Of a stretch of 54,145 nt of DNA, positions 10,608-39,554 are shown in pieces. Under the pieces are notes generated by a model. The model saw only the letters and a list, made by a program, of their open reading frames with translations, ran no database searches and was not told the DNA's origin. The translations under genes and the position numbers were made by a program. How positions within the stretch are numbered: position 1 is the first letter of the stretch; the number at the start of each line of letters is the position of its first letter. Source of the stretch: an uncultured Prevotellaceae bacterium (GTDB lineage Bacteria > Bacteroidota > Bacteroidia > Bacteroidales > Muribaculaceae); NCBI GenBank assembly GCA_900317835.1, contig ONIL01000016.1:1-54145 (forward strand), in the 5' to 3' direction.

Positions 10608-10623
10608 TGGCACGCGGTTTGCA
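10608..10623 (+). promoter_or_regulatory. Sigma-54 (-24/-12) promoter for dnaK
   Basis: TGGCACG-CGGT-TTGCA matches the sigma-54 consensus TGGCACG-N4-TTGCW at every specified base, with the required 10 bp between GG (10609-10610) and GC (10621-10622). The start of transcription would be near 10634, giving a leader of about 83 bases. No CIRCE element and no TAnnTTTG box was found here. Confidence 0.75.
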
Positions 10624-10634
10624 TGAATGACGGC

Positions 10635-10658
10635 GGTGACCTGTGTTAAATGGTCACC
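10635..10658 (+). other. Hairpin at the start of the dnaK leader
   Basis: GGTGACC (10635-10641) and GGTCACC (10652-10658) form a perfect 7-bp stem with a 10-base loop, starting at the predicted sigma-54 transcript start. It could stabilise the mRNA 5' end or be an operator. It is not followed by a T run, so it is not a terminator. Confidence 0.5.
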
Positions 10659-10716
10659 AATCAACATTGCAATTAATAACATTAAAAAACATATAAAAGA
10701 AAGAGAGACATTTATT

Positions 10717-12642
10717 ATGGGAAAGATTATTGGTATCGATTTAGGAACGACTAACTCGTGTGTTTCGGTTCTGGAAGGTTCAAAGCCTGTTGTGATTCCC
10801 AACAGCGAGGGCCGCAATACGACCCCCTCGGTAGTCGCCTTCAAGGATGGCGGTGAGCGCATCGTGGGCGATCCTGCCAAGCGCCAGGCTATCATGAACC
10901 CCACGGGTACCGTATTTTCTATCAAACGTTTCATGGGCGAGACATTCGACCATGTGTTGAAGGATGTGAACCGCATGCCTTATAAGGTCGTGGACAACGG
11001 CAGCAACCAGCCTCGTGTTGAAATTGCCGGCCGCCAGTACACGCCGCAGGAGATTTCAGCAATGATTCTCCAGAAGATGAAGAAAACGGCCGAGGATTAC
11101 CTCGGAACCACCGTTGATGAGGCTGTCATTACCGTGCCCGCTTACTTCAACGATGCTCAGCGCAAGGCCACCAAGGAGGCCGGCGAAGTGGCAGGCTTGA
11201 AGGTTCAGCGCATCGTGAACGAGCCCACCGCAGCCGCTCTGGCTTACGGCCTGGACAAGGACAACAGCGACAAGCGCATTGCCGTGTTCGACCTGGGTGG
11301 TGGTACTTTTGATATCTCAATCCTGGAATTGGGTGACGGCGTGTTTGAGGTGAAGGCCACCAATGGTGACACCCACCTGGGCGGCGACGACTTTGACCAG
11401 CGCATCATCACCTGGCTGGCCGAAGAGTTCCAGCAGGAGAACAATATGGACCTGCGCAAAGATCCCATGGCTCTGCAGCGCCTGAAAGAGGCTGCCGAGA
11501 AAGCTAAGATTGAACTCTCGAGCTCGACGAGCACCGAGATCAACCTGCCCTATATCACCCAGTTGGATGGTATGCCCAAGCACCTGGTAAAGACCTTGAC
11601 CCGTGCCAAATTTGAGCAATTGTGCGACGACCTTATCCAGAGCACCATCGAGCCGTGCCGCAAGGCTCTTGCCGACGCCGGCTTGAGCACCAGCGACATC
11701 AACGAGGTCATCCTCGTGGGCGGTTCGACCCGTATCCCCGCAGTTCAGCAGGTAGTGGAGAAGTTCTTCGGCAAGGCTCCGTCTAAGGGTGTTAACCCCG
11801 ACGAGGTAGTAGCTGTCGGCGCTGCCATTCAGGGCGGTGTACTTACTGGCGACGTTAAGGACGTGCTGCTGCTTGATGTGGTGCCCCTGAGTGTGGGTAT
11901 TGAGACGCTGGGTGGCGTGATGACCAAGCTCATCGAGGCCAACACCACCATCCCCGCCCGTCGCAGCCAGGTGTTCTCGACTGCTGCCGACAATCAGCCT
12001 GAGGTAGAGATTCACGTCCTGCAGGGCGAGCGTCCCATGGCAAAGGACTGCAAGACCCTGGGCCGCTTCCACCTCGATGGCATCGCTCCCGCTCCCCGTG
12101 GCATTCCTCAGATTGAGGTGACCTTTGAGGTCGATGCCAATGGTATCATGAACGTCAGCGCTAAGGACAAGGCTACCGGCAAGGAGCAGAGCATCCGCAT
12201 CGAGGCTTCGAGCGGACTGAGCGACGCCGAAATCCAGCGCATGAAGGACGAGGCTACCGCCAACGCTGCCGCCGATGCCGCCGAGAAGGAGCGCATCGAC
12301 AAGATCAACGGCGCCGATGCCCTCATCTTCCAGACCGAGAAGGTGCTCAAGGACAGTGGTGACAAACTGCCAGCCGACATCAAGGGACAGATTGAAGGTG
12401 CCCTGGGCAAACTCAAGGACGCCCACAAGAACCAAGACCTCGCTGCCATCGACACAGCAACCGCCGAGTTGAACTCGCTGTTCGAGAAGATGTATCAGCA
12501 GGCCGGTGGAGCACAAGGCCAGCCCGGTGCAGGCTTTGATCCCAATAACATGGGCGGCTTCCAGGGCGGTCCCCAGCAGGGCGGCACTCCCAATCAGGGT
12601 GGCGACAATGTTGAAGACACAACCTACGAGGAAGTGAAATAA
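10717..12642 (+). CDS. dnaK: Chaperone DnaK (Hsp70)
   Basis: ATP-dependent cytosolic chaperone that refolds proteins with DnaJ and GrpE. 641 residues, the normal length. N-terminal ATPase motifs: [58 protein letters not shown] and [11 protein letters not shown]. The linker [11 protein letters not shown] and the peptide-binding domain follow, ending in a Gly/Gln-rich tail and [12 protein letters not shown], the typical EEVK-like end. The start is placed at 10717 (MGKIIGID), not at the upstream in-frame ATG at 10627, which lies before or at the predicted transcript start. dnaJ and grpE are not adjacent. A sigma-54-type promoter with upstream repeats precedes it, and a terminator follows. Confidence 0.97.
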
Positions 12643-12667
12643 TAAAATTAAGGGTTAATAATAGTGT

Positions 12668-12700
12668 CAAGGCGCAAAGCAGTGAATGCTCCGCGCCTTG
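12668..12700 (+). terminator. Intrinsic terminator after dnaK
   Basis: CAAGGCGC (12668-12675) pairs with GCGCCTTG (12693-12700), followed by a run of eight T. Confidence 0.85.
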
Positions 12701-12920
12701 TTTTTTTTGAAAAGGGGTAATGTTGTGCCGTTTCGGTTGACAAATAGGTTGGTAAAACGATTGCACTGTGGTTAATTAACTTATAGTCAGCGATTAGAGC
12801 AAATATTAGTGAATTTGGCTCCTTGTGCTTAATCTGTTGATAATCAGACGTGTACTAATTATTCTCGTTTTTGCTTGTTGATTATCAATGGAAAAGGGTG
12901 GGAAATTGAAGGTTTTTTTG

Positions 12921-12928
12921 TACCTTTG
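12921..12928 (+). promoter_or_regulatory. -7 element for glycogen synthase gene
   Basis: TACCTTTG, a perfect TAnnTTTG, 31 bases before the ATG at 12960. It lies inside the longest open frame, so it argues against the in-frame ATG at 12888 as the start. Confidence 0.65.
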
Positions 12929-12959
12929 TGCCCAAATTTTCAATATTATACTAAAACTA

Positions 12960-14609
12960 ATGTTGGACTTACTGTTTGAAACCAGTTGGGAGGTCTGTAA
13001 CAAGGTGGGTGGCATCTATGCCGTTCTCTCGACCAAGGCCAAAACCCTTCATCAACAATACAAAGATAACCTCATTTTCATCGGCCCCGACCTGTGGACC
13101 GACGAGAACCCGTCACCGACATTTGTCGAGATGCGCACACCGCTTGCCCAGTGGCAACGCCAGGCGCTGCTTCCCGACGGCATGCGGGTGAGGGTCGGGC
13201 GTTGGGACATCCCCGGCAAGCCCATCGCGGTGCTGGTGACCTATGACGCGCTGTATACCTACAAAAATGCCCTCTATTCCGACATGTGGAACCGCTATCG
13301 CGTGGATTCGCTGCATGCCTATGGCGACTATGACGAGTCGTGCATGTTTGCTTATGCTGCCGCCATCGTCATCGAGAGCATTGTCAAGTGGAAAGACAAC
13401 CCCGATTTGAAGATTGTGGCCCATTTTGACGAATGGACAACCGGAATGGGACTGCTGCACATCAAGGCCCACATGCCGCAGGTGGCCACTGTGTTTACCA
13501 CCCATGCCACGAGCATCGGCCGCAGCATCTGTGGCAATGGCAAGCCGCTTTATGACTACATGGAGGGATACGATGGCGACCAGATGGCCGCTGAACTCAA
13601 CATGCAGTCCAAGCATTCCCTTGAAAAAGCTGCCGCCCATGCCGCCGATGCCTTCACGACCGTGAGCGGCGTCACGGCGCGTGAGTGCCGTCAGCTGCTG
13701 GAGCGTTATCCCATGATCACTCCCAACGGCTTTGAGCAGAACTATGTTCCCAAAGGCAGCAAGTTCACCGCTAAGCGGGCTGCAGCCCGTGAGTGCATGC
13801 TGCGAGTGGCAGGCCGACTCACAGGGCAGCATTATGCCGACGATACTCTGATTGTTGCCACTTCGGGCCGCTTGGAAATGCGCAACAAGGGCATTGATGT
13901 CTATCTGGATTCCGTGTCCTCGCTGCGTGATTCGCTACGGTTTGTGTCAAAGGCGCGCAAGGTGGTCGCCCTGGTGCTGGTTCCCGCATGGATGAAGGCG
14001 CCTCGAGCCGATCTGGTTGAGAGTCTTCATGCCTCCAAGCCTCACCGCCTGTTTGACCCCGTGATTACCCATCACCTGCACAATCAGGACAGCGATCCAG
14101 TCTATAACCGCATCAATGTGCTGGGTTTCCACAACGAGCCTCATGACAAGGTAACACTCATCGATGTGCCCTGCTACTTGAACGGGAATGACGGTATCTT
14201 CAACATGTCTTATTATGACCTGTTGGCTGGCCTTGATGCTGCGGTCTTCCCGTCCTATTATGAGCCGTGGGGCTACACCCCGCTCGAGAGTGCGGCATTT
14301 GGAGTTCCGACCATTACGACCGATCTTGCTGGCTTTGGCCAGTGGGTGCTTGACCGCTTTGGTGACGATTCCGACCGTTACGGCGTGAAGGTGCTCCACC
14401 GCACCGACAGCAACTACGACGAGACCGTCAGGGCCATTGCGATGAGCATGATGAACCTGTATGTGATGAGCGATAAGGAAAACCGTGCCATCCGCAATGC
14501 CAACCGAACGACCAGCAAGGCTGCCTCATGGGACAACTTCATCTCATGCTATGACGAGGCCTACAGCCATGCCCTTGACATGGCCGCTCAACGCATGAAA
14601 ACAAAATAA
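12960..14609 (+). CDS. Glycogen synthase, eukaryote-type (GT3)
   Basis: Adds glucose from a nucleotide sugar to the non-reducing end of glycogen, cytoplasmic. About 549 residues. The N-terminus LLFETSWEVCNKVGGIYAVL and the HFDEWTTGMGLL and FTTHATSIGRS blocks match the GT3 (animal/yeast GYS) family rather than bacterial GlgA (GT5). The retaining-GT acceptor motif is FPSYYEPWGYTPLESAAFGV, with the paired Glu residues. The start at 12960 follows the TACCTTTG box; the upstream in-frame ATG at 12888 precedes the promoter. It sits 39 bases upstream of glycogen phosphorylase, so synthesis and breakdown genes appear to form one operon. Whether the donor is UDP- or ADP-glucose cannot be read from sequence. 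Confidence 0.9.
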   Translation: MLDLLFETSWEVCNKVGGIYAVLSTKAKTLHQQYKDNLIFIGPDLWTDENPSPTFVEMRTPLAQWQRQALLPDGMRVRVGRWDIPGKPIAVLVTYDALYTYKNALYSDMWNRYRVDSLHAYGDYDESCMFAYAAAIVIESIVKWKDNPDLKIVAHFDEWTTGMGLLHIKAHMPQVATVFTTHATSIGRSICGNGKPLYDYMEGYDGDQMAAELNMQSKHSLEKAAAHAADAFTTVSGVTARECRQLLERYPMITPNGFEQNYVPKGSKFTAKRAAARECMLRVAGRLTGQHYADDTLIVATSGRLEMRNKGIDVYLDSVSSLRDSLRFVSKARKVVALVLVPAWMKAPRADLVESLHASKPHRLFDPVITHHLHNQDSDPVYNRINVLGFHNEPHDKVTLIDVPCYLNGNDGIFNMSYYDLLAGLDAAVFPSYYEPWGYTPLESAAFGVPTITTDLAGFGQWVLDRFGDDSDRYGVKVLHRTDSNYDETVRAIAMSMMNLYVMSDKENRAIRNANRTTSKAASWDNFISCYDEAYSHALDMAAQRMKTK

Positions 14610-14648
14610 CGAAAAAACAAAACAACATCATAACTACTCAATTCAATT

Positions 14649-17201
14649 ATGAAATTTCAAGCAAGTAACAGCAACGATCCTCAGTGGAGGAACATCACTG
14701 TAAAGTCCCAGTTGCCGGGCAAACTCAACAAACTCAACGAAATGTCCCGCAACCTGTGGTGGGCATGGAATAGCGAGGGCAAAACCCTCTTCCATGACCT
14801 GGACCGTGACACTTGGCGCGCTACCAGCGAGAATCCCGTGAAGCTGCTTCAGCGCCTCGATAACGAGAAAATCGCGGCTATTCAAGGCGACAGCGCCATG
14901 ATGGCCCGCATCGACAGCACCTACGAGGTGTACAAGGAATACATGAAGAAGCCCCTGCGCAATGACTTGCCCTCGGTGGCTTACTTCTGCATGGAATATG
15001 GTCTGTGTAACGCCCTCAAGATCTATTCGGGTGGCCTGGGCATTCTGGCTGGTGACTATGTCAAGGAAGCCAGTGACCGCTGTGTGCAAATGACTGCAGT
15101 GGGTTTCCTTTACCGTTATGGTTATTTTACCCAGACCTTGTCGATGGATGGCCAGCAGATTGCCAACTATGAGGCGCAAAACTTTCACCAGTTGCCCATC
15201 GAGCCCGTTCTTGACGAAAAAGGCCAACAGCTGGTGCATGAGGTTCCTTATCCTGGCCGCGTCATCTATGCCAACGTGTGGAAAGCTAACGTGGGTCGCG
15301 TGACCCTCTATCTGCTGGATACCGACATGGAACGCAATAGCGAGTATGACCGCGAGATTACCCACAAGCTCTATGGTGGCGACTGGGAGAACCGCATCAA
15401 GCAGGAGTACCTGCTGGGTATCGGTGGCGTGTTGCTGCTCAAGCGATTGGGCATCAAGGCTGACATCTATCACTGCAACGAGGGCCATGCCGCATTGCTC
15501 AACCTGCAGCGTCTGGTCGATATGGTTCAAGAAGACGGCCTGAGCTTCAACGAGGCCCTTGAGATCGTGCGTGCCACTTCGCTTTATACCGTTCATACTC
15601 CCGTACCCGCGGGTCATGACTACTTCGAGGAGGAACTCTTCGGCAAGTACATGGGTGAGTATCCCGAGCGCCTGGGCATCACCTGGCAAGAACTCATGGA
15701 CATGGGCCGTGAGAACCCCGGCAGCAACGAGCGCTTCTGCATGAGCACGTTTGCCTTAAACACCACCCAGGAGAGCAACGGCGTCAGCTGGCTCCATGGC
15801 GAGGTGTCTAAACGCATGTTCTCCGGCATCTGGAAGGGCTATGCCCCTGAGGAGTCTCATGTAGGCTACGTCACCAACGGTGTACACATGCCCACCTGGG
15901 CCGCCAGCGAGTGGAAGGTGTTCTACAAGCAGGTCCTCGGCGATGACTTCATGGATAACCAGGAACTTGAATCGACCTGGGCTCCCCTGATGAATGTCCC
16001 TGACGAGAAAATCTGGGAGATGCGCATGATGTTGAAGCAGAAGTTTATCCGCTTTGTCAAGCGTGACTTCCGCGACAACTGGCTCAAGAACCAGGGTGAT
16101 CCCACCCGCATCACCAGCATTGTTGAGAAGATCAATCCCAATGCGCTGTTGATTGGCTTTGCCCGCCGTTTTGCTACCTACAAGCGTGCCCACCTCATTT
16201 TCAATGACCTGGAGCGCCTCAAGAAGATTGTCAACAACGAGCAGTTCCCCGTGCAGTTCATCTTTGCTGGTAAGGCTCATCCCGCCGATGGTGCAGGCCA
16301 GGGCCTGATCAAGCGCATCATCGAGATCAGCAAGATGCCCGAGTTCCTTGGCAAGATCATCTTCCTCGAGAACTACGACATGACGCTCTCCAAGCGCCTC
16401 ATCACGGGTGTTGACGTGTGGTTGAACACACCGACGCGCCCCCTGGAGGCATCGGGTACCTCTGGCGAGAAGGCCGAGATGAACGGTCTGCTTAACTTCT
16501 CGGTACTCGACGGTTGGTGGTATGAGGGTTATCGTGAGGGTGCCGGCTGGGCGTTGACCAGCAAGCGCACCTACACCGAGCAGGCCCAGCAGGACAAACT
16601 CGACTCGGCAACCATCTATGCGATGCTCGAGAACGAGATTATTCCGCTCTACTTTGCCAAGAACAGCAAGGGCTACTCACCCGAGTGGATCCAGTATATC
16701 AAGAACTCAATCTGCCACATTGCTCCCAACTACACGATGTCGCGCATGATGAAGGATTACTTCGTGAAGTTCTATCGTCCGCAGGCCGAGCGTGCAGCTC
16801 GCCTTGTGGCCAAGAATTACAAGCTGGCCAAGGAGATTGTCGCTTGGAAGGAGAAAGTGGCCGCTCGTTGGGACGACGTGCATCTCGTCGGTGAGATTAT
16901 GGGCAACCGTGATGCTATTGCCAATGGTACCGCCGACATTGACGTCACCATGCGTCTCGACACCGCCGGTCTGGGCAAGGATGTGAAACTCGAACTCGTC
17001 GTCAACCGCGATGAGGACGGTCAAGTCAAGTTCTACCGCACTGTTCCCTTTGAGACCGTTGCTGAGGACGGCAATGTCTTCACCTACAACTGCAAGCTTC
17101 CTTTCCACGAGAACGGTACTTTCCGTTATGCTTTCCGTGCATATCCTTGGAATGAGAACCTGCCCCATCGTCAGGACTTCGCTTACCTCAAGTGGTTCTA
17201 A
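14649..17201 (+). CDS. glgP: Alpha-glucan (glycogen) phosphorylase, GT35
   Basis: Releases glucose 1-phosphate from glycogen using phosphate and a pyridoxal-phosphate cofactor. 850 residues. It opens with the DUF3417-type N-terminal region ([20 protein letters not shown]), followed by [22 protein letters not shown] and [12 protein letters not shown]. Later blocks are [26 protein letters not shown] and the PLP-site region [20 protein letters not shown]. This is the short-type alpha-glucan phosphorylase of many Bacteria and Archaea, not the E. coli GlgP/MalP subgroup. The extra C-terminal ~130 residues carry a beta-rich domain. It is co-oriented with the GT3 synthase 39 bases upstream. No branching or debranching enzyme is in the window. 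Confidence 0.94.
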
Positions 17202-17248
17202 GCTAGTCTAGCGATAGTTCCTTAAACAGCTGTCGCAACAACTTATCG

Positions 17249-17289
17249 GCGGCAAGAACAACATGGCTTTACATGCTTGTTCTTGCCGC
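17249..17289 (+). terminator. Intrinsic terminator after glgP
   Basis: Perfect 13-bp stem GCGGCAAGAACAA (17249-17261) / TTGTTCTTGCCGC (17277-17289), followed by TTTTTT. Confidence 0.9.
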
Positions 17290-17329
17290 TTTTTTATGCT
17301 GTTTTGATGACACAAAACAGCATAAAAAA
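17290..17329. repeat. 17-bp perfect inverted repeat
   Basis: The arm 17290-17306 (TTTTTTATGCTGTTTTG) is exactly complementary to 17313-17329, with a 6-base loop. It directly abuts the glgP terminator and shares its T run. It could be a second, fail-safe terminator (no T run of its own downstream) or an anchor for a DNA-binding protein. Confidence 0.8.
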
Positions 17330-17360
17330 CACGAAAAGCCAAAAATCATAGTTTTTTTGC

Positions 17361-24710: not shown

Positions 24711-26891
24711 TCATTCAGCCTCTTTCTTTCTAACCCTGGCTTTTTTGATGCTGGTGACAATTTTGCCGTTTTCAGCATCTATGACAATGGTGTCGCCTTG
24801 TTTGGCCTCCTCGCGCAGGAGCATCTCGCTAAGGGGATCCTCGATTTCACTTTGGATAGCGCGCTTCAACGGACGGGCACCGTACTGGATGTCAAAACCA
24901 TGGTCGGCGACCAGATTCTTGGCAGCATCGGTGATTTCCAACTTGAGACCGTTCTCCTCGACGCGCTTGTAGAACGAGGCTAGCTCGATGTCCACTATCT
25001 TGAGGATGCACTCGTGGTTCAAGGTTCCAAAGGTCACGATGTCATCGACGCGGTTCAGGAACTCGGGTGAGAACTGGCGGTTCAGTGCTTTGCGGATTAC
25101 CGCATCACTGCGCTCTTTGGTCAACTCGGTGGTGTTGAAACCCACACCGGCTCCGAAGTCTTTCAGTTCCCTGGTGCCGATGTTGCTCGTCATGATGATG
25201 ATGGTGTTCTTGAAATCCACTTTACGGCCAAGACCGTCGGTCAGATTGCCTTCATCAAGCACCTGCAGAAGCATGTTGAAAACGTCAGGGTGAGCCTTCT
25301 CGATTTCGTCGAGCAGAACGACACTGTAGGGGTGACGGCGCACCTTCTCGGTCAATTGTCCACCTTCCTCATAACCCACATAGCCCGGAGGCGCACCCAC
25401 AAGCCTGGAAACATTGAATTTTTCCATGTATTCACTCATGTCCACGCGAATAAGGGCATCATCGCTGTTGAACAGGAACTGGGCGAGTTTCTTGGCAAGC
25501 AAGGTCTTGCCGACGCCCGTCGGTCCCAGGAACATGAACGAGCCGATGGGGCGCTTGGGGTCACGCAGGCCAGCGCGGTTGCGGCGGATGCTGCGCGCAA
25601 TCTTGTCGATGGCCTCATCCTGCCCGATGACCTGTTTCTTGAGTTCGTCGGTCATACCCAGCAGGCGGATTCCCTCGCTCTGGGCAATGCGTTGGGCGGG
25701 AACGCCGGTCATCATGGCGACAACCTCGGCGATATGGCCCTCATTGACTGTCACACGACGGCTGTCGAGTTCTGCTTCCCAACGTTCCTTGGCTGTCAGG
25801 AGCTCCTCCTTGAGTTTCTCCTGCTGGTCGCGGTAGTTGGCAGCGCTCTCGAAGTTCTGTTCCTGCACAGCCTTGAACTTGTTCTCCTGAGCCTCGGCGA
25901 TGCGACGTTCCAGGTCCTCAATCTCCTTGGGCGTATCCACTTTTGTGATGTGTACACGTGAGCCGGCCTCATCCATCGCGTCGATGGCCTTGTCGGGGAA
26001 GAAACGGTCACTGATGTAGCGGTCGGTCAATGTAACACACGCCTTAAGGGCTTCATCGGTGTAGTTCACGCCATGGTGCTTCTCGTACATCTCCTTGATG
26101 TTGTGCAGGATCTCCAGTGTCTGTTCGGGCGTGGTGGGCTCGACAAGGACTTTCTGGAAACGGCGCTCGAGGGCTCCGTCTTTCTCGATGCTCTTGCGGT
26201 ACTCGTCGAGCGTGGTGGCACCGATGCACTGGAACTCGCCGCGGGCAAGTGCTGGCTTGAGCAGATTGGCGGCATCCATCGACCCGCTGGCATTGCCGGC
26301 ACCCACGATGTTGTGGATCTCATCAATGAACATGATGACGTTCTTGTTGGCGCTCACCTCGTCGATAACGGCCTTGAGGCGCTCCTCAAACTGGCCGCGG
26401 TACTTCGTACCCGCTACAATGGCGGCCATGTCGAGCGAAACAATGCGCTTGTCGAGTAGGGTGCGAGCCACCTTGCGCTCGACGATGCGCTTGGCCAATC
26501 CCTCGATAATGGCGCTCTTGCCCACACCGGGCTCGCCAATCATCACAGGGTTATTCTTCTTGCGGCGGCTAAGGATTTGTGCCAACCGCTCAATTTCAGC
26601 CTCACGGCCCACGACGGGGTCAAGACGCCCCTCGGCAGCCTCGCGGGTGATATCCTTACCATATTTGTCGATGACTGGAGTGGCCGAATTGTCACCTCGA
26701 CTGACATTTCGTCGCTGTCGGGTTTCGCGGTAGGCCGGGTTTTCGCTTTCGCCCTCACCTGAGTAACCACCGCCACCGGGCAGGTCGTCTTCTTCCTCGT
26801 CCTCTTCATCGGGGAAGTCGGCACCTGCAGTGGGCAAGGCGAAGCCCTGCCTCCAGTACTGTTGTTGAATGTCGTGCTGGTTGTTGATCAT
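24711..26891 (-). CDS. clpC: ClpC-family AAA+ ATPase lacking the N-terminal Clp_N domain
   Basis: Hexameric unfoldase of the Hsp100 family. Both ATPase modules are complete: first Walker [10 protein letters not shown], Walker B FIDEIHN; second Walker [10 protein letters not shown], Walker [13 protein letters not shown], and pore loops KYRGQFEER and [13 protein letters not shown] short UVR-like middle coiled coil ([20 protein letters not shown]) places it in ClpC, not ClpB, and GAGVGF may be the ClpP-docking loop. It has 726 residues; ClpC is usually about 830-850. The missing part is the entire N-terminal Clp repeat domain: the protein starts with about 20 residues, then an acidic/Gly linker ([13 protein letters not shown]) directly before the first ATPase. 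No upstream frame restores it. A sigma-54-type promoter lies 53 bases upstream of the start. Confidence 0.9.
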
Positions 26892-26943: not shown

Positions 26944-26959
26944 TGCAAACACCATGCCA
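26944..26959 (-). promoter_or_regulatory. Sigma-54 (-24/-12) promoter for the ClpC-like gene
   Basis: On the minus strand TGGCATG-GTGT-TTGCA, a match to TGGCACG-N4-TTGCW at all but one base, with exactly 10 bp between GG and GC. The transcript would begin near 26933, a leader of about 42 bases. It sits between the terminator of the upstream endonuclease gene and the clp start. Confidence 0.7.
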
Positions 26960-27048: not shown

Positions 27049-28863
27049 TTAATTACCGAGGATGATATCGATGAGTTCAGTGACATCAGTGATGGTCACC
27101 TCGCCATCGTGATTGATGTCTGATATCTCGTCATAGGCTGTAGCGCCCTTCAACACAACATCGATGATGGCTGTGATGTCCATGATGTTGACCTCGCCAT
27201 CGTGATTAACGTCGCCGATGAGCGGCTCGTCACCGTTACCAACGATGGTCACGTGCTGGATATTGGACCACACGCTGGCATCACCGTCGGTGTAGATGGC
27301 CTTGACCATGTATTCATACACGCCTCCGGCCAGTCCTTGCACGGTATATTGATTGTCGGTGATACCGCTCACTGTGCGCCAGGTGGAGTCACCCTCCTCG
27401 ATGATGACGCGTCGGGGTCCATTGGTCTTGGCAGTCAGGTCGCCGTTGTAGATGCTCACATTAAATACATAAAAGCGTTTCTTGGGAGCAGTCATAGCCA
27501 GCTTGACATTCTTGCTGGAGCAGCCCCTCAGCACAACGGTGTAATCGGTGGGCGTGTCGGTCAGCGGGATGGTCTGGCTCACATCGCCACAAGAAACGAT
27601 GACCGAACTGCCGTCGCTACCTGCACTGCCGATCCAGTTCTTGGCGTTGAAAACGACCGTTATGGTGGGGCCTAACTCGAGTTCCGGCGAGGTGATATAA
27701 CCACTCTCGTTAGATGTTCCGATTTTTACACTCTGGCCAGCAGCGGTGTATACTTTGTATCCCGTCCAGCCAGGATTGTCAGTGTAGTTGTCGAGCATCT
27801 CACCGATGTCACGGTTGCCGTCGACTGTGGTATTGATTTTTGAGAAATTCTCGGTCATCAACAGTGTGGTAGTCTCATCGCCAGGCACGGCAATGCGATT
27901 GACCTGCAGCGTGTAGCTCGACACGTTCTCGACAGCGGTCCAGTCAGCACGGAATGAACTGCCGGTCACTGCCGTCGTATCGACTGCCAGCATGACGGGG
28001 ACTTCTTTAACTATTGGATCAGGAGTATCCTCGCCCGTCCAGTTGGCATTCTGCTTGATGCCCCAGATGTATTCGGCCAGCTCGGGGTGATCTATAAAGG
28101 GGTTGCGGTTACCCTGCTCACTGTAGACAGCCTCGTTGCGCTTGATTTCCTTTTGGCTCACTGGGTCGGCGCGGTGCCACTCCATGAGCAGCTGCATCGA
28201 CCAATTTGAGAAAGCCTTGTAATTGTTGTTCGTGTAGTCCAACTGATCGCAGCCGGGCCAGTTCGAGATATCGCTCTTGTAGCAGGTGACCATGTAGAAA
28301 TAGATGCGTGCGAAGTCACCCTTATACTCGTCATCGGGCTCAAACACGGTGGCAGTGTAGCCATTGTAGGTGCTGGTTCCCAACTTGCCTTTCATGGTCA
28401 CACCCATTTGCTCGTTGGTGTAGGTGATGCCACCGGCACACACGCCATAGGGGTGGTTGTTGCGGCGCTGATTCACATAGGCATCGGTCGGGATGAGCAT
28501 GGTCAGGTCAGTAAACATGGGAAAGACCTCCCCACCAAACCAACTTTTGGGGAACGAATGCTCGCGGTTGATGCCCTCACCCACGTAGGAAGCCCCTCCC
28601 ACATGGTCTGACTGGTTGTTGTACTTGCATGTGGAGTACATGTCGATGTAGTAGCCGTCACTGCCCAGGTCGGTGGTATCAAAGGCTGTCCACATGTAGT
28701 TGTAAGACAACTGGGTGTGGGTATAGATGATGCCCTCGAGGGCGGTCATCAGCGCTTCGTCATGCTTGCCGATGGCGTTGCTGTAGTACCCGACGGGGAT
28801 GTCGGCCCAAGCTGTAATACCAATGGTCAACACGGTCAGGAAAGAGGTAATTACTTTTTTCAT
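27049..28863 (-). CDS. Secreted endonuclease I family nuclease with C-terminal dockerin-like module
   Basis: 604 residues. Signal peptide MKKVITSFLTVLTIGITAWA, then an endonuclease I (EndA/NucM-type) domain containing GINREHSFPKSWFGG and a second block DLTMLIPTDAYVNQRRNNH (catalytic His and metal ligands expected there). It continues through about residue 280. Fibronectin-III-like beta segments follow. The last 55 residues are a two-repeat dockerin-like module: GDVNHDGEVNIMDITAIIDV and DINHDGEVTITDVTELIDII, ending in LGN. The start is put at 28863 because it begins a proper signal peptide; the open frame continues upstream but overlaps the HD gene. Likely a surface or secreted DNase/RNase for nucleic acid scavenging. 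It is the last gene of the lptF-ribBA-HD run, 10 bases after the HD stop. Confidence 0.85.
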   Translation of the reverse strand: MKKVITSFLTVLTIGITAWADIPVGYYSNAIGKHDEALMTALEGIIYTHTQLSYNYMWTAFDTTDLGSDGYYIDMYSTCKYNNQSDHVGGASYVGEGINREHSFPKSWFGGEVFPMFTDLTMLIPTDAYVNQRRNNHPYGVCAGGITYTNEQMGVTMKGKLGTSTYNGYTATVFEPDDEYKGDFARIYFYMVTCYKSDISNWPGCDQLDYTNNNYKAFSNWSMQLLMEWHRADPVSQKEIKRNEAVYSEQGNRNPFIDHPELAEYIWGIKQNANWTGEDTPDPIVKEVPVMLAVDTTAVTGSSFRADWTAVENVSSYTLQVNRIAVPGDETTTLLMTENFSKINTTVDGNRDIGEMLDNYTDNPGWTGYKVYTAAGQSVKIGTSNESGYITSPELELGPTITVVFNAKNWIGSAGSDGSSVIVSCGDVSQTIPLTDTPTDYTVVLRGCSSKNVKLAMTAPKKRFYVFNVSIYNGDLTAKTNGPRRVIIEEGDSTWRTVSGITDNQYTVQGLAGGVYEYMVKAIYTDGDASVWSNIQHVTIVGNGDEPLIGDVNHDGEVNIMDITAIIDVVLKGATAYDEISDINHDGEVTITDVTELIDIILGN

Positions 28864-28873
28864 TGTGCAATTA

Positions 28874-29503
28874 TTATTGGTTGATAGTATTATAGGTTTT
28901 TTCAAACAGTTGGCGGAAGGCTGCTTCATCGGCCAGAATGGAGCGGAACTCGGCCAAGCGGCGGGCGTTGTCGCCGTGCGGAATCCACAGGCGAAGGTAG
29001 CCGCCCTCGGCATACTTCTCCTGCATGTGCTCCTTCAATCGCAGGTATTGCTCTTCGCGATCGAGGCCGGGGTAGTGTGACATGCCGTACTGGAGGGCAC
29101 GCCGCACGATGGTATTGCTGTCGATGATGCGGTCGGCCTCGGCGACAATGCGGCCATAGATGGTGCGCGGTTCATGGTCACTCGATGCGCGGTGATCCTC
29201 GGCGGCATCGGCGATGGTGTTGATTTCCTCATCGCTGAACCATTGGCACAGTCGCTTGTCGGCGTGCACAATAGCCGCGCTGTCGATGTGGTGCCGTTCT
29301 CTGCCGTTAATCAGCCCAAGGTCATGATAGGCGGCGGCAGTGAGCAGGATGCACAGGTCCACCTCGGGATAAAACTGTGCCAGATTCATTGCCTGTGCCA
29401 TGACGTGCTCAGCATGGTCCCTGCCATGCCCAGCGTCAAAGTTGTCGTAGCGTGGAACGATTTCCTGTTCCAGGAAAGTTTTTATTTCATCAAGATTCCT
29501 CAT
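28874..29503 (-). CDS. HD-domain metal-dependent phosphohydrolase
   Basis: 209 residues. HD motif pieces HGRDHAEHV (about residues 26-34) and AAAYHDLGL (about 57-65), a later DHRASSD and the closing AEADRIIDS supply the metal-binding His/Asp set of the HD superfamily. The substrate is unknown; relatives hydrolyse nucleotides or second messengers. The start is taken as the ATG at 29503, overlapping the last base of the ribBA stop (TGATG), so it is translationally coupled to ribBA; a TTG one codon earlier is also open. A link to riboflavin or nucleotide metabolism is inference from position only. Confidence 0.8.
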   Translation of the reverse strand: MRNLDEIKTFLEQEIVPRYDNFDAGHGRDHAEHVMAQAMNLAQFYPEVDLCILLTAAAYHDLGLINGRERHHIDSAAIVHADKRLCQWFSDEEINTIADAAEDHRASSDHEPRTIYGRIVAEADRIIDSNTIVRRALQYGMSHYPGLDREEQYLRLKEHMQEKYAEGGYLRLWIPHGDNARRLAEFRSILADEAAFRQLFEKTYNTINQ

Positions 29504-32726: not shown

Positions 32727-32736
32727 CAAAAAATAA

Positions 32737-32756: not shown

Positions 32757-32780
32757 TGTGGTTTTTTTATATAAACAATA

Positions 32781-33236: not shown

Positions 33237-33333
33237 ATATGAAGTAAACGATTGATTACATTCTTTTATTATAAGGGCTGGAGTCAGGGAACAAATTATT
33301 TGGTGACATGTGTGCTAATCGCTGAAAAATGCC

Positions 33334-33341
33334 TAATTTTG
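33334..33341 (+). promoter_or_regulatory. -7 element for the DUF5686 gene
   Basis: TAATTTTG, ending only 10 bases before the ATG at 33352. Either the transcript is nearly leaderless or translation begins at the next ATG (33370). Confidence 0.5.
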
Positions 33342-33351
33342 CGCCTTTGTG

Positions 33352-35892
33352 ATGAACCTCTTGAGACATATGATGTGGGTGCTGGTTATGGCTGCCGTGG
33401 CATTGACGGCTGCTGGCCAACAAGCAGCAATGACCCAAATCACAGGCCTCGTGCGTGATTCGGTCACCCACGAGGGCATTGCACTGGCATCCATCTCGCT
33501 TGTAGGCACCAGTGAGGGTACTCTTGCCACCGAAAAAGGCGGCTTCACCATCAATACACGAGCCAAATTCTCCAAATTGCGCATCAGCGCAATGGGGTAT
33601 AAAACCAAGGAAGTGGACGTGAAAACGGGGCAGGGGAGCGTCGTTCTCATCGATCTGGTGGCAACGGGTGTCGAGCTGGATGAGGTTGTCGTTCGAAAGG
33701 GTAAAGAGAAATACAGCAAGAAGAACAATCCCGCAGTGGAAATGATCAAGAAACTGCGGGCACGTCGCGATGATAATGACCCGCGGCAATACCCTCATTA
33801 TGGCTACTCACAGTATGAGCGCATGATGTTGGGCTTTGGCAACCTGGATAATCTGGTCAAGGATGCACAAGAAAACAAGGCGTGGATAGAGCAGTATGCC
33901 GACACCTCGATGCTCACAGGAAAACGCATACTGCCCATCTCCATCAAGGAGACGGTCGCGCGCGACTACTACAGCCGTAACCCTGAGATCCACAAGCACT
34001 TGATCCTGGGATCCAAAAGTGCCGGTATTGATGAGCGTATCGACCAAGAGAATATCAAGAAGGTGCTGGATGATTTCATGGGCGAGGTCGATATTTTCCA
34101 GAATGATGTGACCTTGCTGACCAACCGTTTTGTGAGTCCATTGTCGCGCATAGCGGTTGACTTTTACAAGTTCTATCTCAATGACACGGTTATGGTGGAT
34201 GGCGAATGGTGCGCTGTGTTGAGTTTTGTACCGTTCACGCCACAGACGTTCGGATTCCTGGGGCGTTTGTTCGTTTCACTCGAGGATACGACGATGTTTA
34301 TCAAGCGGGTGTCGATGGGCGTGCCCTACGACATCAATCTCAACTATGTGGAACGCATGAGCATTGAGCAGGACTTTGACCGCGCGCCCAATGGTGCACG
34401 CCTCAAGATGAGGGATAATGTGGAGGTGAGTTTCAAACTCATGCCCGGAGTCCCCGAGGTGTTTGCCCGTCGTGAAACCAACTATCGCGACCACAACTTC
34501 GAGCGACCTGAGGGTGGGGTATTCAATTTCAAGGGAGATCATGCCGTGGAGAGTAGTGCGGCCTATATGCCCGATGAATTTTGGCAGGAATACCGTCCCG
34601 CTGATGTCCGTACAACCACCGCCACCATCAGCGGTTTGATGCAACGGCTGCGTAGCTCAAAACTGTTCTATTGGGCTGAGCAGGTCGTGGTGGTTATGGT
34701 GAATGGTTATCTCCCAACGGGCAAGGTGAGCAAGTTTGATATTGGCCCGTTGAATACCATTATCAGCGGTAATTCGCTTGAGGGTGTGCGTTTGCGCTTT
34801 GGCGGAATGACCAATGTGAACCTGAGCCGTCACTGGTTTGCCCGGGGCTATGTGGCCTATGGCACGCGTGACGAGAAATTCAAGTACATGGGTTCATTGG
34901 AGTATTCTTTCATTCCCAAGAAGTCTCTTGACCAGGAATTCCCCATCCACAGCTTGCGCTTGACCCACAAGTATGATGTGGATAAACTGGCACAACATTA
35001 TCTCTACACCAATCAGGACAATGTGTTCCTCACGTTGCGCCGGCACAAGGATGTGAGGATGCAGTACTTGCGTACTACACGTCTCGAATATCGTCACGAG
35101 TGGTATAACCATTTCTCAATTGCATTGGGTATTGAACATAACGTCCATGAAGCGACACGGTATGTGCCGTTCATTTATAATGACGGTTCATCACGCCAGC
35201 GATACACCCAAGCCGGATTTACGGCACAGCTGCGTTTTGCTCCGGGTGAGACCTTCTATCAAGCTCGTTCCTACCGTATCCCCATCAACATGGACGCGCC
35301 TATCATGACCTTGACCCAGACTTATATGCCCAAGGGGTTTATGGGCAGTCTGCATGAATTCAACAAGACAGAACTGGGCCTGCAGAAGCGTTTCTGGTTC
35401 TCGGCTTTCGGCTATGCTGATGTCATTGTGAGGGGCGAGAAGGTGTGGAGCAAGGTGGCCTATCCTGACCTGTTGATGCCTAATGTCAACCTGAGTTACA
35501 CTATCCAGCCTGAAAGTTACACATTGATGAAACCCATGGAATTCATCAATGACCAGGCATTGTCGTGGGACCTGACCTGTTGGGGCAACGGCATCCTGAT
35601 GAACCGTCTGCCGCTCATCAAGCGGTTGCGGTTGCGCGAGGTTATTACATTGCGCGGCATCTGGGGCCGCCTCAGCGACAAGAATAATCCAGCAAAATGT
35701 GATGATGTCTTCCTGTTCCCGGCCGATGCCCTGTGCCGCTCCATGGGCAACCAACCCTATATGGAAGCCGGCGTCGGCATCGACAACATCCTCACTATCC
35801 TGCGTGTGGACTACGTCTGGCGTCTCACCTACCGCGAGAACGCTGGTACCGACCGTCGCGGCATCCGCGTCCAGCTCCATTTCAACTTTTAG
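33352..35892 (+). CDS. DUF5686 outer-membrane protein with CarboxypepD_reg-like domain
   Basis: About 846 residues. Signal peptide (MNLLRHMMWVLVMAAVALTA), then a carboxypeptidase-regulatory-like beta sandwich (about 30-110: ITGLVRDSVTHEGIALASIS, FTINTRAKFSKLRISAMGYK), then a long DUF5686 region rich in beta strands ending in RGIRVQLHFNF, which has the C-terminal aromatic of outer-membrane barrels. The family is specific to Bacteroidota; function is unknown, with possible roles in surface transport or adhesion. An in-frame GTG one codon upstream (33349) and an ATG at 33370 are alternative starts. Confidence 0.82.
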   Translation: MNLLRHMMWVLVMAAVALTAAGQQAAMTQITGLVRDSVTHEGIALASISLVGTSEGTLATEKGGFTINTRAKFSKLRISAMGYKTKEVDVKTGQGSVVLIDLVATGVELDEVVVRKGKEKYSKKNNPAVEMIKKLRARRDDNDPRQYPHYGYSQYERMMLGFGNLDNLVKDAQENKAWIEQYADTSMLTGKRILPISIKETVARDYYSRNPEIHKHLILGSKSAGIDERIDQENIKKVLDDFMGEVDIFQNDVTLLTNRFVSPLSRIAVDFYKFYLNDTVMVDGEWCAVLSFVPFTPQTFGFLGRLFVSLEDTTMFIKRVSMGVPYDINLNYVERMSIEQDFDRAPNGARLKMRDNVEVSFKLMPGVPEVFARRETNYRDHNFERPEGGVFNFKGDHAVESSAAYMPDEFWQEYRPADVRTTTATISGLMQRLRSSKLFYWAEQVVVVMVNGYLPTGKVSKFDIGPLNTIISGNSLEGVRLRFGGMTNVNLSRHWFARGYVAYGTRDEKFKYMGSLEYSFIPKKSLDQEFPIHSLRLTHKYDVDKLAQHYLYTNQDNVFLTLRRHKDVRMQYLRTTRLEYRHEWYNHFSIALGIEHNVHEATRYVPFIYNDGSSRQRYTQAGFTAQLRFAPGETFYQARSYRIPINMDAPIMTLTQTYMPKGFMGSLHEFNKTELGLQKRFWFSAFGYADVIVRGEKVWSKVAYPDLLMPNVNLSYTIQPESYTLMKPMEFINDQALSWDLTCWGNGILMNRLPLIKRLRLREVITLRGIWGRLSDKNNPAKCDDVFLFPADALCRSMGNQPYMEAGVGIDNILTILRVDYVWRLTYRENAGTDRRGIRVQLHFNF

Positions 35893-35914
35893 CAGTGATG
35901 TGTTAATAACTTTT

Positions 35915-35946
35915 TTTGTGTGCTTGGGAAAATAGCAGTAATTTTA
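35915..35946 (+). promoter_or_regulatory. Promoter for dnaE
   Basis: TTTG (35915-35918), 20 bases, TAATTTTA (35939-35946), a 7-of-8 match to the TAnnTTTG set. The start codon at 35984 is preceded by GAAGGAGTGACTT, an unusually clear Shine-Dalgarno for this group. Confidence 0.55.
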
Positions 35947-35983
35947 CACTCCATATCTGTAGTAAAAATAGAAGGAGTGACTT

Positions 35984-38900
35984 ATGATACCATTTGTACA
36001 TCTTCACGTACATTCACAATACTCGATTCTTGACGGCATGTCGCCAGTCAAGACGCTGGTTGATAAGGCAATAGCCGACGGCATGAGAGGCATGGCCATT
36101 ACCGACCATGGCAACATGTATGGCATCAAGGAATTTCACGATTATGTCAACAAACTCAATAAAAAGCGAGGTAATGACGAGAAATTCAAGCCGATTTTTG
36201 GTTGTGAGGTCTATGTTGCCAATGAATCACGTCACGACCGCCATGACAAACGCGATAACGGTAACCACTTGATCCTGCTGGCCAAGAACCTGACGGGCTA
36301 CAAGAACCTCATCAAGATTGTGTCCCACGCTTGGACCGAGGGCATGTATTACCATCCCCGAACAGACCATAGCGAACTGGAAAAGTACCATGAGGGCATC
36401 ATTTGCTGCTCGGCTTGCTTGGGCGGAGAGGTGCCCCAACTCATCATGGGCGGGCAAATCAACAAGGCCCGCGAGACGGTTGAGTGGTTCAAGAGCGTCT
36501 TTGGCGACGACTACTATCTGGAGTTGCAGCGCCACAAGGCTACCGTCGCCAGGGCCAATCACGAGACCTATGAGCGGCAGGTTGAGGTGAACAAGGTGCT
36601 GATGCAGTTTGCCAGTGAGTTGGGTATCAAGCTCATTTGTACCAATGATTCCCACTTTGTCAATGAGGATGATGCCGACGCCCATGAGCGTCTTATCTGC
36701 CTCTCAACAGGCAAGAAATTGACTGACGAGAACGTGATGCTCTACAGCAAGCAGGAATGGTTTAAAACAACCCAGGAGATGAACGAAGTGTTTGCCGATG
36801 TCCCCGAAGCCCTGAAGAACACCAACGAGATTCTGGACAAGGTGGAGATTTACAGTATCGACCATGCACCCATCTTGCCCGATTTCCCCTTGCCTGATGG
36901 CTTTGACAACGAGGATGACTACCTGCGTTATCTCGTGTATGAAGGTGCCAGGGAACGCTGGCCAAACCTTACTGAAGAGCAACGCGAACGCCTTGATTTT
37001 GAGCTGGAAACGATTAAGAACATGGGCTTTCCTGGTTACTTCCTGATCGTTCAGGATTATATCAGGATGGCTCCCAAACTGGGTTGTTCAGTAGGTCCTG
37101 GTCGTGGATCTGCTGCAGGTTCAGCTGTGGCTTATTGTCTGGGAATCACCAAGATAGATCCGTTGAAGTATGACCTGCTATTTGAGCGTTTCCTCAATCC
37201 CGACCGCATATCGCTGCCCGATATCGACACCGACTTTGACGATGATGGCCGAGCAGCCGTGCTCAATTATGTGACACAGAAGTATGGGGCCGAGAAAGTG
37301 GCTCATATCGTGACATACGGCACAATGGCAGCCAAAAGTGCCATTAAGGATGTGGCGCGTGTCGAAGACCTGTCGGTGGCCGAGAGCAACCGTCTGGCTA
37401 AATACATCCCGACCTCACCCAACGAGATGCCTGAAGATAAATCAGGCAAGAAATACAAGATCACGATACAGAACTGTCTGGACTGCTTCACCGACTTCCG
37501 CCACGAACTCGAGAACGAGGATCCCCGAGTAGCTGAAACCATCCGCTTTGCGTTGAAACTCGAGGGAAGTATCCGCAGTACTGGTGTTCACGCCTGTGGT
37601 GTCATCATCGGCCGCGATGATATCACCGATTGGGTGCCTGTGAGCACTGCCAACGACAGTGATGGCGAGCGCATTATAGTAACACAGTATGAGGGTGGTG
37701 TCATCGAGACCACAGGCCTCATCAAGATGGACTTCCTGGGTTTGAAGAACCTCTCCATCATCAAGGAGGCGCTGGCCAACATCAAGCTCAATCACGGCGT
37801 TGACATCGACATTGAGAATATTCCCATTGATGACCCCAAGACCTATGAACTCTATTGCAAGGGAATGACCTCGGGCACGTTCCAGTTCGAGTCGGCAGGT
37901 ATGCAAAAGTACCTCATCGAGTTGCATCCCACCTGCTTTGAGGACCTGATTGCCATGAACGCCCTGTATCGTCCCGGCCCCATGGACTATATCCCGCAGT
38001 TCATCAACCGCAAGCAGGGTAGGGAACCCATTGAATATGACATCCCTTGCATGGAGAAGTACCTCAAGGAGACCTACGGAATCACCGTGTATCAGGAGCA
38101 GGTCATGCTGCTGTCAAGGCAGTTGGCAGGCTTCACCCGCGGCCAGAGCGACACCCTGCGCAAGGCGATGGGCAAGAAGCAAATCGACAAGATGAATGAG
38201 CTGGAAGCCTTGTTCTATGAGGGAGGAGAGAAAAATGGCTACGACAAGAAGGTGCTTAACAAGATTTGGGAAGATTGGAAGAAATTCGCGTCCTACGCCT
38301 TTAACAAGTCGCATGCTACCTGTTACAGTTGGGTCGCTTATCAGACCGCTTACCTCAAGGCCAATTATCCCAGCGAGTATATGGCCGCCGTCTTGAGCAG
38401 TAACCTCAATGACGTGGATAAGCTGTCCAAGTATATGGACGAGTGCCGCTCGATGGGCATCGAGGTGCTGGGGCCAAACATTAATGAGAGTTACAAGAGC
38501 TTCAGTGCAACCAAGGACGGTCGCATTCGTTTCGGCTTGGCGGGCATTAAGGGCGTTGGCGTGGGTTGCGTTGAGTCGATCGTTGAGGAACGTGACAAGA
38601 ACGGACCCTATAAGGATATCTTTGACTTTGTGCAGCGCATCAACCAGGGTGCCTGCAACCGCAAGGCGCTGGAATCCATGGCCTTGGCTGGCACATTCGA
38701 TGACTTCAAGGAAATCAAGCGCGAGGACTTTTTTGAGGTTAATCCACGTGGAGAGTTATTCAGTGAGACACTGATGCGCTTCGGCCAGCGCTACCAGACC
38801 AGCCAGCAGGAGATGCAGAACTCACTGTTCGGCGCCCTTGGCGGATTAGAGGTGGCGACACCCACAATCCCTAAAGCCGAACCGTGGTCTCAGCTTGAGA

Positions 38901-39526
38901 GGCTTAACCGCGAGCGTGACCTGGTGGGTATGTATTTGTCAGCCCATCCTCTTGACCCCTATTACATAGAGGTGAATTATGGCTGTGACACACCGTTGGC
39001 CGAGGTGAAGAACCGTGATGACCAGATTGACAAGGAATTGACAATGGGCGGACTGGTCGTTGATTTCCAGACACGAATGGGCAAAAAGGGACAATTCGGC
39101 ATCCTCAAGATTGAGGACTATTCCGGATCGTTTGAGTTTATGCTTTTCGGTAATAAATTCGTTGATTATCAAAAGTATGGAGTTCCGGGATATGCTATTG
39201 TGGTGCGAGGCGCCTACGAGAGGGGCTATAATGATAATGTCAGGTTCAATGTCCGTTCAATAGACCTGCTCGAGAACATGAAGGGTAAAATGCTCAAAAA
39301 TCTGGTCATCTCGTTGAAGGATGATGACTTGGGACATGTGGATTTCCTGAAACCGTATCTGGGCGCCAAAGGTGACAATCGTTGTGACCTGTATTTCCGC
39401 ATGAAGGATCATCAAAGCGGTAATTATGTCATGTTGCGCTCAAAACGGCCTATTGCTGTGAACAAGCGGTTGATGGAGGCCATGCAAGAAGCGGGTATCA
39501 GATATAAAGTCAATGCCCGCGTGTGA
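35984..39526 (+). CDS. dnaE: DNA polymerase III alpha subunit
   Basis: Replicative polymerase, 1180 residues. The N-terminal PHP domain keeps its metal ligands (HLHVHSQYS, TDHGNMYG, FGCEVYVA, CTNDSHFV), so it may retain a proofreading nuclease. The catalytic palm has SVGPGRGSAAGS and the acidic triad motif PDIDTDFDDDGR. Later blocks are FLGLKNL, YRPGPMDYIPQF, YGITVYQEQVM and a helix-hairpin-helix near FGLAGIKGVG. A C-terminal OB-fold (GGLVVDFQTRMGKKGQFGIL) follows. This is DnaE of the DnaE1 type; length is slightly short but all domains are present. Downstream, trxA has its own promoter. Confidence 0.97.
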   Translation: MIPFVHLHVHSQYSILDGMSPVKTLVDKAIADGMRGMAITDHGNMYGIKEFHDYVNKLNKKRGNDEKFKPIFGCEVYVANESRHDRHDKRDNGNHLILLAKNLTGYKNLIKIVSHAWTEGMYYHPRTDHSELEKYHEGIICCSACLGGEVPQLIMGGQINKARETVEWFKSVFGDDYYLELQRHKATVARANHETYERQVEVNKVLMQFASELGIKLICTNDSHFVNEDDADAHERLICLSTGKKLTDENVMLYSKQEWFKTTQEMNEVFADVPEALKNTNEILDKVEIYSIDHAPILPDFPLPDGFDNEDDYLRYLVYEGARERWPNLTEEQRERLDFELETIKNMGFPGYFLIVQDYIRMAPKLGCSVGPGRGSAAGSAVAYCLGITKIDPLKYDLLFERFLNPDRISLPDIDTDFDDDGRAAVLNYVTQKYGAEKVAHIVTYGTMAAKSAIKDVARVEDLSVAESNRLAKYIPTSPNEMPEDKSGKKYKITIQNCLDCFTDFRHELENEDPRVAETIRFALKLEGSIRSTGVHACGVIIGRDDITDWVPVSTANDSDGERIIVTQYEGGVIETTGLIKMDFLGLKNLSIIKEALANIKLNHGVDIDIENIPIDDPKTYELYCKGMTSGTFQFESAGMQKYLIELHPTCFEDLIAMNALYRPGPMDYIPQFINRKQGREPIEYDIPCMEKYLKETYGITVYQEQVMLLSRQLAGFTRGQSDTLRKAMGKKQIDKMNELEALFYEGGEKNGYDKKVLNKIWEDWKKFASYAFNKSHATCYSWVAYQTAYLKANYPSEYMAAVLSSNLNDVDKLSKYMDECRSMGIEVLGPNINESYKSFSATKDGRIRFGLAGIKGVGVGCVESIVEERDKNGPYKDIFDFVQRINQGACNRKALESMALAGTFDDFKEIKREDFFEVNPRGELFSETLMRFGQRYQTSQQEMQNSLFGALGGLEVATPTIPKAEPWSQLERLNRERDLVGMYLSAHPLDPYYIEVNYGCDTPLAEVKNRDDQIDKELTMGGLVVDFQTRMGKKGQFGILKIEDYSGSFEFMLFGNKFVDYQKYGVPGYAIVVRGAYERGYNDNVRFNVRSIDLLENMKGKMLKNLVISLKDDDLGHVDFLKPYLGAKGDNRCDLYFRMKDHQSGNYVMLRSKRPIAVNKRLMEAMQEAGIRYKVNARV

Positions 39527-39538
39527 CATAATGCCTGT

Positions 39539-39554
39539 TGGCACCGAATTTGCT
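39539..39554 (+). promoter_or_regulatory. Sigma-54 (-24/-12) promoter for trxA
   Basis: TGGCACC-GAAT-TTGCT matches TGGCACG-N4-TTGCW except at one base, with the GG (39540-39541) to GC (39552-39553) spacing of 10 bp. The transcript would start near 39565, a 45-base leader to the trxA ATG. No TAnnTTTG box is evident in the 83-base gap after dnaE. Confidence 0.65.

Follow-up and report, generated by a model that had tools for sequence, protein, structure and literature searches.

How genes for protein folding, unfolding and redox are switched on in Bacteroidota, a phylum whose heat-shock control is to our knowledge little worked out, is a question raised by a stretch of DNA from an uncultured, gut-type Prevotellaceae bacterium (GenBank assembly GCA_900317835.1, contig ONIL01000016.1, positions 1 to 54,145 of the forward strand). 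In this stretch, all 54,145 nucleotides of which are referred to here as the window, dnaK, a gene for a ClpC-like ATPase (clpC below) and trxA are each preceded by a sequence resembling the −24/−12 promoter of sigma-54, and the original prediction joined the three into a sigma-54 regulon for heat and oxidative stress. From the analysis described here, the sites at dnaK and clpC are probably genuine sigma-54 promoters of a broad proteostasis and envelope-stress regulon, to which trxA would be a recent addition in this lineage, and are probably opened by the only true bacterial enhancer-binding protein (bEBP) of the genome. The presence of a sigma-54 proteostasis regulon is well supported, and the regulon belongs to a kind already described in Bacteroidota. 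The prediction was thus supported for dnaK and clpC, with rpoN, a bEBP and sites at other chaperone and protease genes all found in the genome, and was not supported for trxA.

Predicted promoters in the window

The sites and the genes downstream of them are as follows.

10608..10623, plus strand: predicted sigma-54 promoter (−24/−12) of dnaK, TGGCACG-N4-TTGCA, TGGCACGCGGTTTGCA
26944..26959, minus strand: predicted sigma-54 promoter (−24/−12) of the ClpC-like gene, TGGCATG-N4-TTGCA, TGGCATGGTGTTTGCA
39539..39554, plus strand: candidate sigma-54 promoter (−24/−12) of trxA, lineage-specific, TGGCACC-N4-TTGCT, TGGCACCGAATTTGCT
10717..12642, plus strand: dnaK (HSP70; Pfam PF00012, E 1.4e-260)
24711..26891, minus strand: ClpC-like AAA+ ATPase of 726 amino acids (Pfam)
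39610..39924, plus strand: trxA (thioredoxin; Pfam PF00085, E 9.6e-30)

The coordinates and the GG-N10-GC spacing of the three sites were confirmed, with TGGCAC/TTGCA-like elements present in all, and the genes were assigned by Pfam to HSP70, the Clp AAA+ ATPases and thioredoxin, as had been claimed. The sites were also found to lie just upstream of the start codons, ending 93 (dnaK), 52 (clpC) and 55 (trxA) bases before them; for dnaK, the ATG at 10717 was preferred to an in-frame ATG at 10627 on a basis that included the orthologues. The strict pattern TGGCA-N6-TTGCW was matched three times in the window against 0.58 expected, and the earlier statement that no fourth site is present is true for this pattern. 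As three or more matches were reached in 3 of 100 shuffled sequences, the evidence of the window by itself is marginal, or at most suggestive, and the case is carried by the rest of the genome and by the relatives. The TAnnTTTG housekeeping box, which had been set against the −24/−12 sites, was matched 37 times in the window where 25.2 were expected (37 being reached in 2 of 100 shuffles) and provides a weak contrast there.

Conservation among relatives

Upstream regions were compared across 30 loci of the family for each gene (37 for clpB), with the pattern reversed and counted over identical or equivalent stretches as a control. A −24/−12 element preceded dnaK in 30/30 loci (control 2/30) and clpC in 29/30 (control 0/30), with the thirtieth clpC locus lying near a contig end. 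The expected conservation of the elements upstream of the dnaK and clpC orthologues was therefore borne out. The same was seen upstream of groES in 29 of the 30 loci (control 1/30), with TATGC frequent at −12, and upstream of clpB in 24 of 37 when a permissive −12 element was used (control 0/37).

The −12 element of dnaK reads TTTGT rather than TTTGC in 24/30 loci, and among the matches listed for the relatives both C and T occur at this position. The idea that TTTGT had displaced TTTGC at −12 throughout the genome was considered and dropped, the pattern TGGCA-N5-TTTGTW giving four matches in this genome against two when reversed; a downstream frame was reported for only one of the four, and none was judged by eye to be a promoter. 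The clpC promoter was likewise rejected as a feature of the whole phylum. It was found in 19 of 80 named Bacteroidota loci, mostly the closest ones (reversed control 0/80), in a search of 370 base pairs (bp) around the first in-frame stop by which sites may be missed.

A genome-wide set of −24/−12 sites

The assembly comprises 3.07 Mb in 65 contigs and is 96.4% complete. The genome is Muribaculaceae-like, the best named matches of its Clp protein, at 93–94%, coming from Prevotellaceae-labelled (RUG362) and Muribaculaceae-labelled (water buffalo reticulum) assemblies. Across this genome the strict pattern was matched 79 times against 19 times for the reversed control. With genes called by a simple codon-based caller, 32 of the matches were intragenic and 47 intergenic, 36 of the latter having a start on the same strand within 250 bp. 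A T preceded TTGC in 21 of these 36 sites and in 2 of the 32 intragenic ones (Fisher p 6e-6), and a T preceded TGGCA in 24/36 and 6/32, respectively (p 9e-5). Since these letters are left free by the pattern, the fuller form TTGGCAY-N4-TTTGCW marks the intergenic set and not the intragenic one.

The proteins encoded downstream of the 36 sites were scanned with Pfam in 33 cases. Besides dnaK, clpC and trxA, the proteostasis genes preceded by a strict site were groES (Cpn10) and those for Hsp20, Lon, ClpS and a trypsin-like/PDZ (degP-like) protease. The genome-wide search that had been suggested thus revealed sites at groES, hsp20, lon, clpS and the degP-like gene, and clpB was found to carry a weaker −12 form, TTGA. 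A ClpA-like ATPase frame starts just 3' of clpS on the same strand (L007 and L125, C12), so the clpS site probably serves both genes. Strict sites also preceded genes for ribosome recycling factor, Bax1-I, NfeD, Band 7/flotillin, LemA, a zinc metallopeptidase, YbjQ, YtxH and LolA, as well as genes with no evident link to stress, among them those for PdxA, aspartate-semialdehyde dehydrogenase, an M20 peptidase and a glycosyltransferase, and several whose proteins fall into no family. Two sigma factors were also among the products, one with regions 1.2 to 4 (primary-type) and one ECF-like (extracytoplasmic function). The presence of strict −24/−12 sites at two sigma-factor genes (L011, L004) is a hint of a sigma cascade.

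It should also be noted that the extended pattern TTGGCAY-N4-TTTGNW was matched 18 and 21 times in the genomes of this genus (G000 and G017) and 2 to 12 times in 37 other genomes of the family, the reversed controls being 2 and 0 in the genus and 0 to 4 in the other 37. These counts suggest that the regulon has been enlarged in this genus.

The sigma-54 factor and its activator

Both the sigma factor and the activator presupposed by a sigma-54 regulon were present. The rpoN gene (L207:2985-4451) encodes core-binding and DNA-binding domains with an intact RRTVAKYR, which we take to be the RpoN box. The N-terminus of the protein is rich in Q and L and its region I appears to be highly divergent, with the sequence of the RpoN box preserved; no −24/−12 site was found just upstream of rpoN.

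A search with PF00158 returned four hits in the genome, only one of them strong (E 4.6e-66) and representing a true bEBP; the other three, at 39 bits or less, are Clp-type ATPases by Pfam. The bEBP consists of 421 amino acids with an AAA+ domain from residue 19, a GSFTGA loop, a lid domain and a Fis-type helix-turn-helix (HTH). No N-terminal sensor domain was found in it, so that regulation through a partner protein, or through the amount of the bEBP itself, is the most likely form of control. The gene for LptE lies directly downstream, followed by that of a 255-amino-acid protein and then SecG. An orthologue was detected in 39/39 family genomes sampled, and in 22 of these no other hit reached E ≤ 1e-15. 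In a set of 30 copies (this one included), 29 start too near the AAA+ domain for a sensor to precede it, the remaining one being longer with an uncertain start, and a regular expression for GAFTGA or GSFTGA matched 29 of the 30. Autoregulation of the bEBP gene was considered and rejected, as no −24/−12 site was present upstream of it in 30 loci, three of which have little DNA before the gene. One activator for every sigma-54 promoter of the genome would make the question of regulation a testable one.

PspF of Escherichia coli is a sensorless bEBP controlled by PspA. The protein described here resembles it in joining an AAA+ domain to an HTH without an N-terminal sensor, and its AAA+ domain matched PspF chains with E ~1e-55. 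It differs from PspF in that its top matches are NtrC-family proteins and NifA, in its linkage to lptE and secG and in its regulon.

A palindrome upstream of the −24 element

Upstream of the dnaK promoter, two overlapping repeats were identified (no strand assigned).

10583..10595: 13-bp palindrome TGACA-ATG-TGTCA, a candidate activator site starting 25 bp before TGGCA, with 0 mismatches to the consensus
10571..10587: inverted repeat TGTCAG-N5-CTGACA, which overlaps the palindrome and adds another such half-site (sequence reading)

The first of these extends to a perfect palindrome of 17 bp at 10581-10597, GCTGACAATGTGTCAGC. Half-sites (TGTCA or TGACA upstream of −24) were counted 82 times in the 30 dnaK sequences against 14.7 in shuffles, 43 times at the intergenic sites of this genome (17.6 in shuffles) and 18 times at clpC (11.2 in shuffles); the controls gave 8 against 10.1 upstream of the bEBP gene and 11 against 11.4 in dnaK coding sequence. 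The full palindrome, TGACA-N3-TGTCA with at most one mismatch, was found upstream of dnaK in 13/30 loci (shuffles 0.1), of groES in 18/29 (shuffles 0.0) and of clpB in 4/24 (shuffles 0.1). Among the controls it was present in 1/30 trxA upstreams, 0/30 bEBP upstreams and 0/32 intragenic sites of this genome, with shuffle means of 0 to 0.6 overall.

In this genome the palindrome starts exactly 25 bp before TGGCA at dnaK, groES and clpB, the groES and clpB copies each having one mismatch, and at −87 at hsp20. Its starts at the groES loci cluster at −25 to −27 and at −35 to −37. In a circular test on the 35 dnaK and groES hits, R was 0.67 for a period of 10 bp, where jittered positions averaged 0.22 (best of three periods). 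As the loci are related and the phase is weaker for dnaK alone (R 0.48), this phasing is suggestive and not proved. The palindrome followed by TTGGCA was matched 37 times across 39 genomes and twice when reversed; by their coordinates, 14 of these coincide with groES or dnaK sites counted above and four belong to one tandem repeat, so that 19 remain. The tandem repeat, at G006:C79:62245-62297 (L323), consists of TGACATTT-like units just upstream of TTGGCA.

Absence of CIRCE at groES

In the HrcA system, chaperonin genes are controlled at CIRCE (controlling inverted repeat of chaperone expression), the sequence TTAGCACTC-N9-GAGTGCTAA. Groups of groES upstreams were scored for it at up to three mismatches, 89 sequences from 88 other genomes of the phylum being included and nine further listed genomes left out. 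CIRCE was found in 0/30 groES upstreams of the family and in 0/24 sampled within the class outside the family; a permissive −24/−12 site was present in 22/24 of the latter (reversed control 0/24), a few of these lying at unlikely positions and the −12 often reading TGA or TGT, not TGC. Outside the class, in contrast, CIRCE preceded groES in 47/65 sequences and a permissive −24/−12 site in 10/65 (reversed control 4). One family outside the class had a −24/−12 site and no CIRCE in 4/4, and two further families (14 sequences) had no CIRCE and two permissive hits. Several groES upstreams from the class but not from the family seemed to contain palindromes as well; these resemble upstream terminators (TGCCAGC...GCTGGCA) and were left out of the palindrome counts.

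These counts point to a replacement of CIRCE by sigma-54 control in the class Bacteroidia, though they do not prove it. The arrangement is like that of HrcA/CIRCE in placing a palindrome beside the chaperonin promoter and unlike it in that CIRCE itself is missing. The single sensorless activator, its candidate palindrome and this contrast with CIRCE are put forward as new leads. A tentative reading, judged somewhat less than probable, is that in Bacteroidia the role of HrcA/CIRCE as master switch of the heat-shock response passed to a single bEBP that lacks a sensor and is encoded together with lptE and secG. It would activate the sigma-54 promoters of the chaperone genes from a proximal, helically phased palindrome (TGACA-N3-TGTCA) and be restrained by a partner, perhaps a chaperone or an envelope protein. 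If true, a complete stress regulon would have passed from control by a repressor (CIRCE) to control by sigma-54.

Proposed mechanism and alternative explanations

The sigma-54 holoenzyme would sit at the −24/−12 elements and wait until the promoter is opened by the sole true bEBP of the genome, encoded just upstream of lptE and secG. The signal is presumably heat or misfolding. Docking would most likely occur on TGACA-N3-TGTCA at dnaK, groES and the clpB of this genome, and more distantly at hsp20, while at clpC, where no such site is recognisable, the bEBP would work through sigma-54. A number of observations weigh against parts of this reading, and these concern trxA, the palindrome and the promoters themselves.

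Upstream of trxA, a −24/−12 site was found in just 2/30 family loci, no better than the reversed control (1/30), so that trxA did not hold up as a conserved member of the regulon. Another trxA copy from the same genus has the housekeeping box TATCTTTG in place of the sigma-54 site, and TAnnTTTG preceded trxA in 14/30 loci against 1.5 in shuffles, though in neither of the two copies that carry the sigma-54 site. Because of these results, the "oxidative" arm of the predicted regulon comes down to one lineage-specific site and was not upheld. It is possible, if somewhat doubtful, that only dnaK and clpC belong to the regulon and that the trxA site, which begins 13 bp past the dnaE stop, is a chance match, with trxA expressed by transcription running on from dnaE or from a promoter that escaped recognition. 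The site does match the consensus well, however, no TAnnTTTG occurs within 160 bp upstream of the trxA start in this genome, and L095, the second genome with a site, carries it at a comparable position (−62 versus −72). At best, trxA would be a lineage-specific addition, and it may have changed promoters in its own lineage.

The link between the palindrome and the activator meets several difficulties. Half-sites were slightly raised at the intragenic sites of this genome (26 against 18.2 in shuffles) and also upstream of trxA, where nearly all sequences lack a sigma-54 site (25 against 12.6). Since the trxA upstreams are raised too, half-sites alone are not specific, the specific form being TGACA-N3-TGTCA. 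The latter was found in 0/29 clpC loci despite their conserved sigma-54 site, with none near the clpC site of the window, and at 3 of the 33 intergenic sites tested in this genome (dnaK, groES and hsp20), plus clpB. With these counts and the 4/24 of clpB, the palindrome was rejected as a universal sigma-54 enhancer, and its absence at clpC means either that the bEBP can do without it or that it is bound by a different protein. At groES it lies mostly 12–24 bp from TGGCA (range at dnaK 12 to 82 bp), and classical enhancers lie farther from the promoter than this; a position so near the −24 element would fit a repressor as well. That sigma-54 drives these genes while a distinct repressor or co-regulator uses the palindrome as its operator at dnaK and groES, with the bEBP acting from solution, is a rather unlikely account, albeit one consistent with the clpC result, with the preferred positions so near −24 at groES and with the 30/33 intergenic sites that have no copy at up to one mismatch. 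Against it stand the excess of palindromes followed by TTGGCA (37 against 2 reversed, overlaps with the counted loci included), the rarity of the palindrome upstream of control genes and the conserved Fis-type HTH of the bEBP, which must have a target of some kind; a repressor was not searched for.

As to the promoters, around one quarter of the strict matches (19/79) could be chance, the reversed control implying that some sites of the regulon are, and a second bEBP could be absent from an assembly that is 96.4% complete. In RpoN, the Sigma54_AID domain (region I) was not reported by Pfam even at E ≤ 10, and TAnnTTTG was found upstream of clpC in 14/29 loci against 4.6 in shuffles. Even so, it is highly improbable that the sites arose by chance or serve as minor promoters, with the genes transcribed from TAnnTTTG by the housekeeping sigma factor, a view favoured by the marginal count in the window and by the boxes at clpC and trxA, given the conservation at dnaK and clpC, the genome-wide excess of the motif with its extended letters at intergenic sites, and the dnaK upstreams, which have no excess of the box (2/30 against 3.2 in shuffles).

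Relation to described sigma-54 regulons

The earlier comment that such a response is not a standard description for Bacteroidales is out of date, as a regulon of this kind has been reported for Bacteroidota in two papers (PMC9723704; PMC12316311). In the transcription-start map of Flavobacterium psychrophilum, sigma-54-type promoters (motif SM4) are given at mapped 5' ends for groES-groEL, lon, dnaK, grpE-dnaJ, htpG and clpB, and the SM4 list also holds a thioredoxin-family gene (PMC9723704). According to the same text, a probable sigma-54-dependent regulator is listed with LptE under another motif, SM5, and the activator is left open among three PF00158 proteins; its main text nowhere has the word TGTCA (PMC9723704). 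The SM4 regulon, as described there, shares dnaK, groES and lon with the strict set found here, and clpB, which has TTGA at −12 in this genome. The present case differs in having one true bEBP against the three PF00158 proteins and in including a ClpC-like gene.

In an in silico survey from 2025, heat-shock genes are predicted to be enriched for sigma-54 promoters in Bacteroidota, the enriched set comprising DnaK, DnaJ, GrpE, GroES, GroEL, IbpA, HSP90, COG0542 and COG0466 (PMC12316311). GrpE and GroES are stated there to be sigma-54-dependent in Bacteroides thetaiotaomicron; the statistics are at class level, and the words "thioredoxin" and "Clp" are not in the main text (PMC12316311). In a full-text literature search that did not cover subscription papers, none of the titles and abstract openings listed named the activator or a replacement of CIRCE in Bacteroidota.

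Further features of the ClpC-like locus

In the 726-amino-acid ClpC-like protein, the Clp N-terminal domain was not reported by Pfam. Its orthologues in the family are mostly open frames of ~840–930 amino acids, and short forms were also seen in the same-genus loci L063, L064, L066 and L090 and in the genome G001. Directly upstream of the ClpC-like gene, at 27049-29013 of the window, lies a gene that encodes an endonuclease I carrying a dockerin type I domain.

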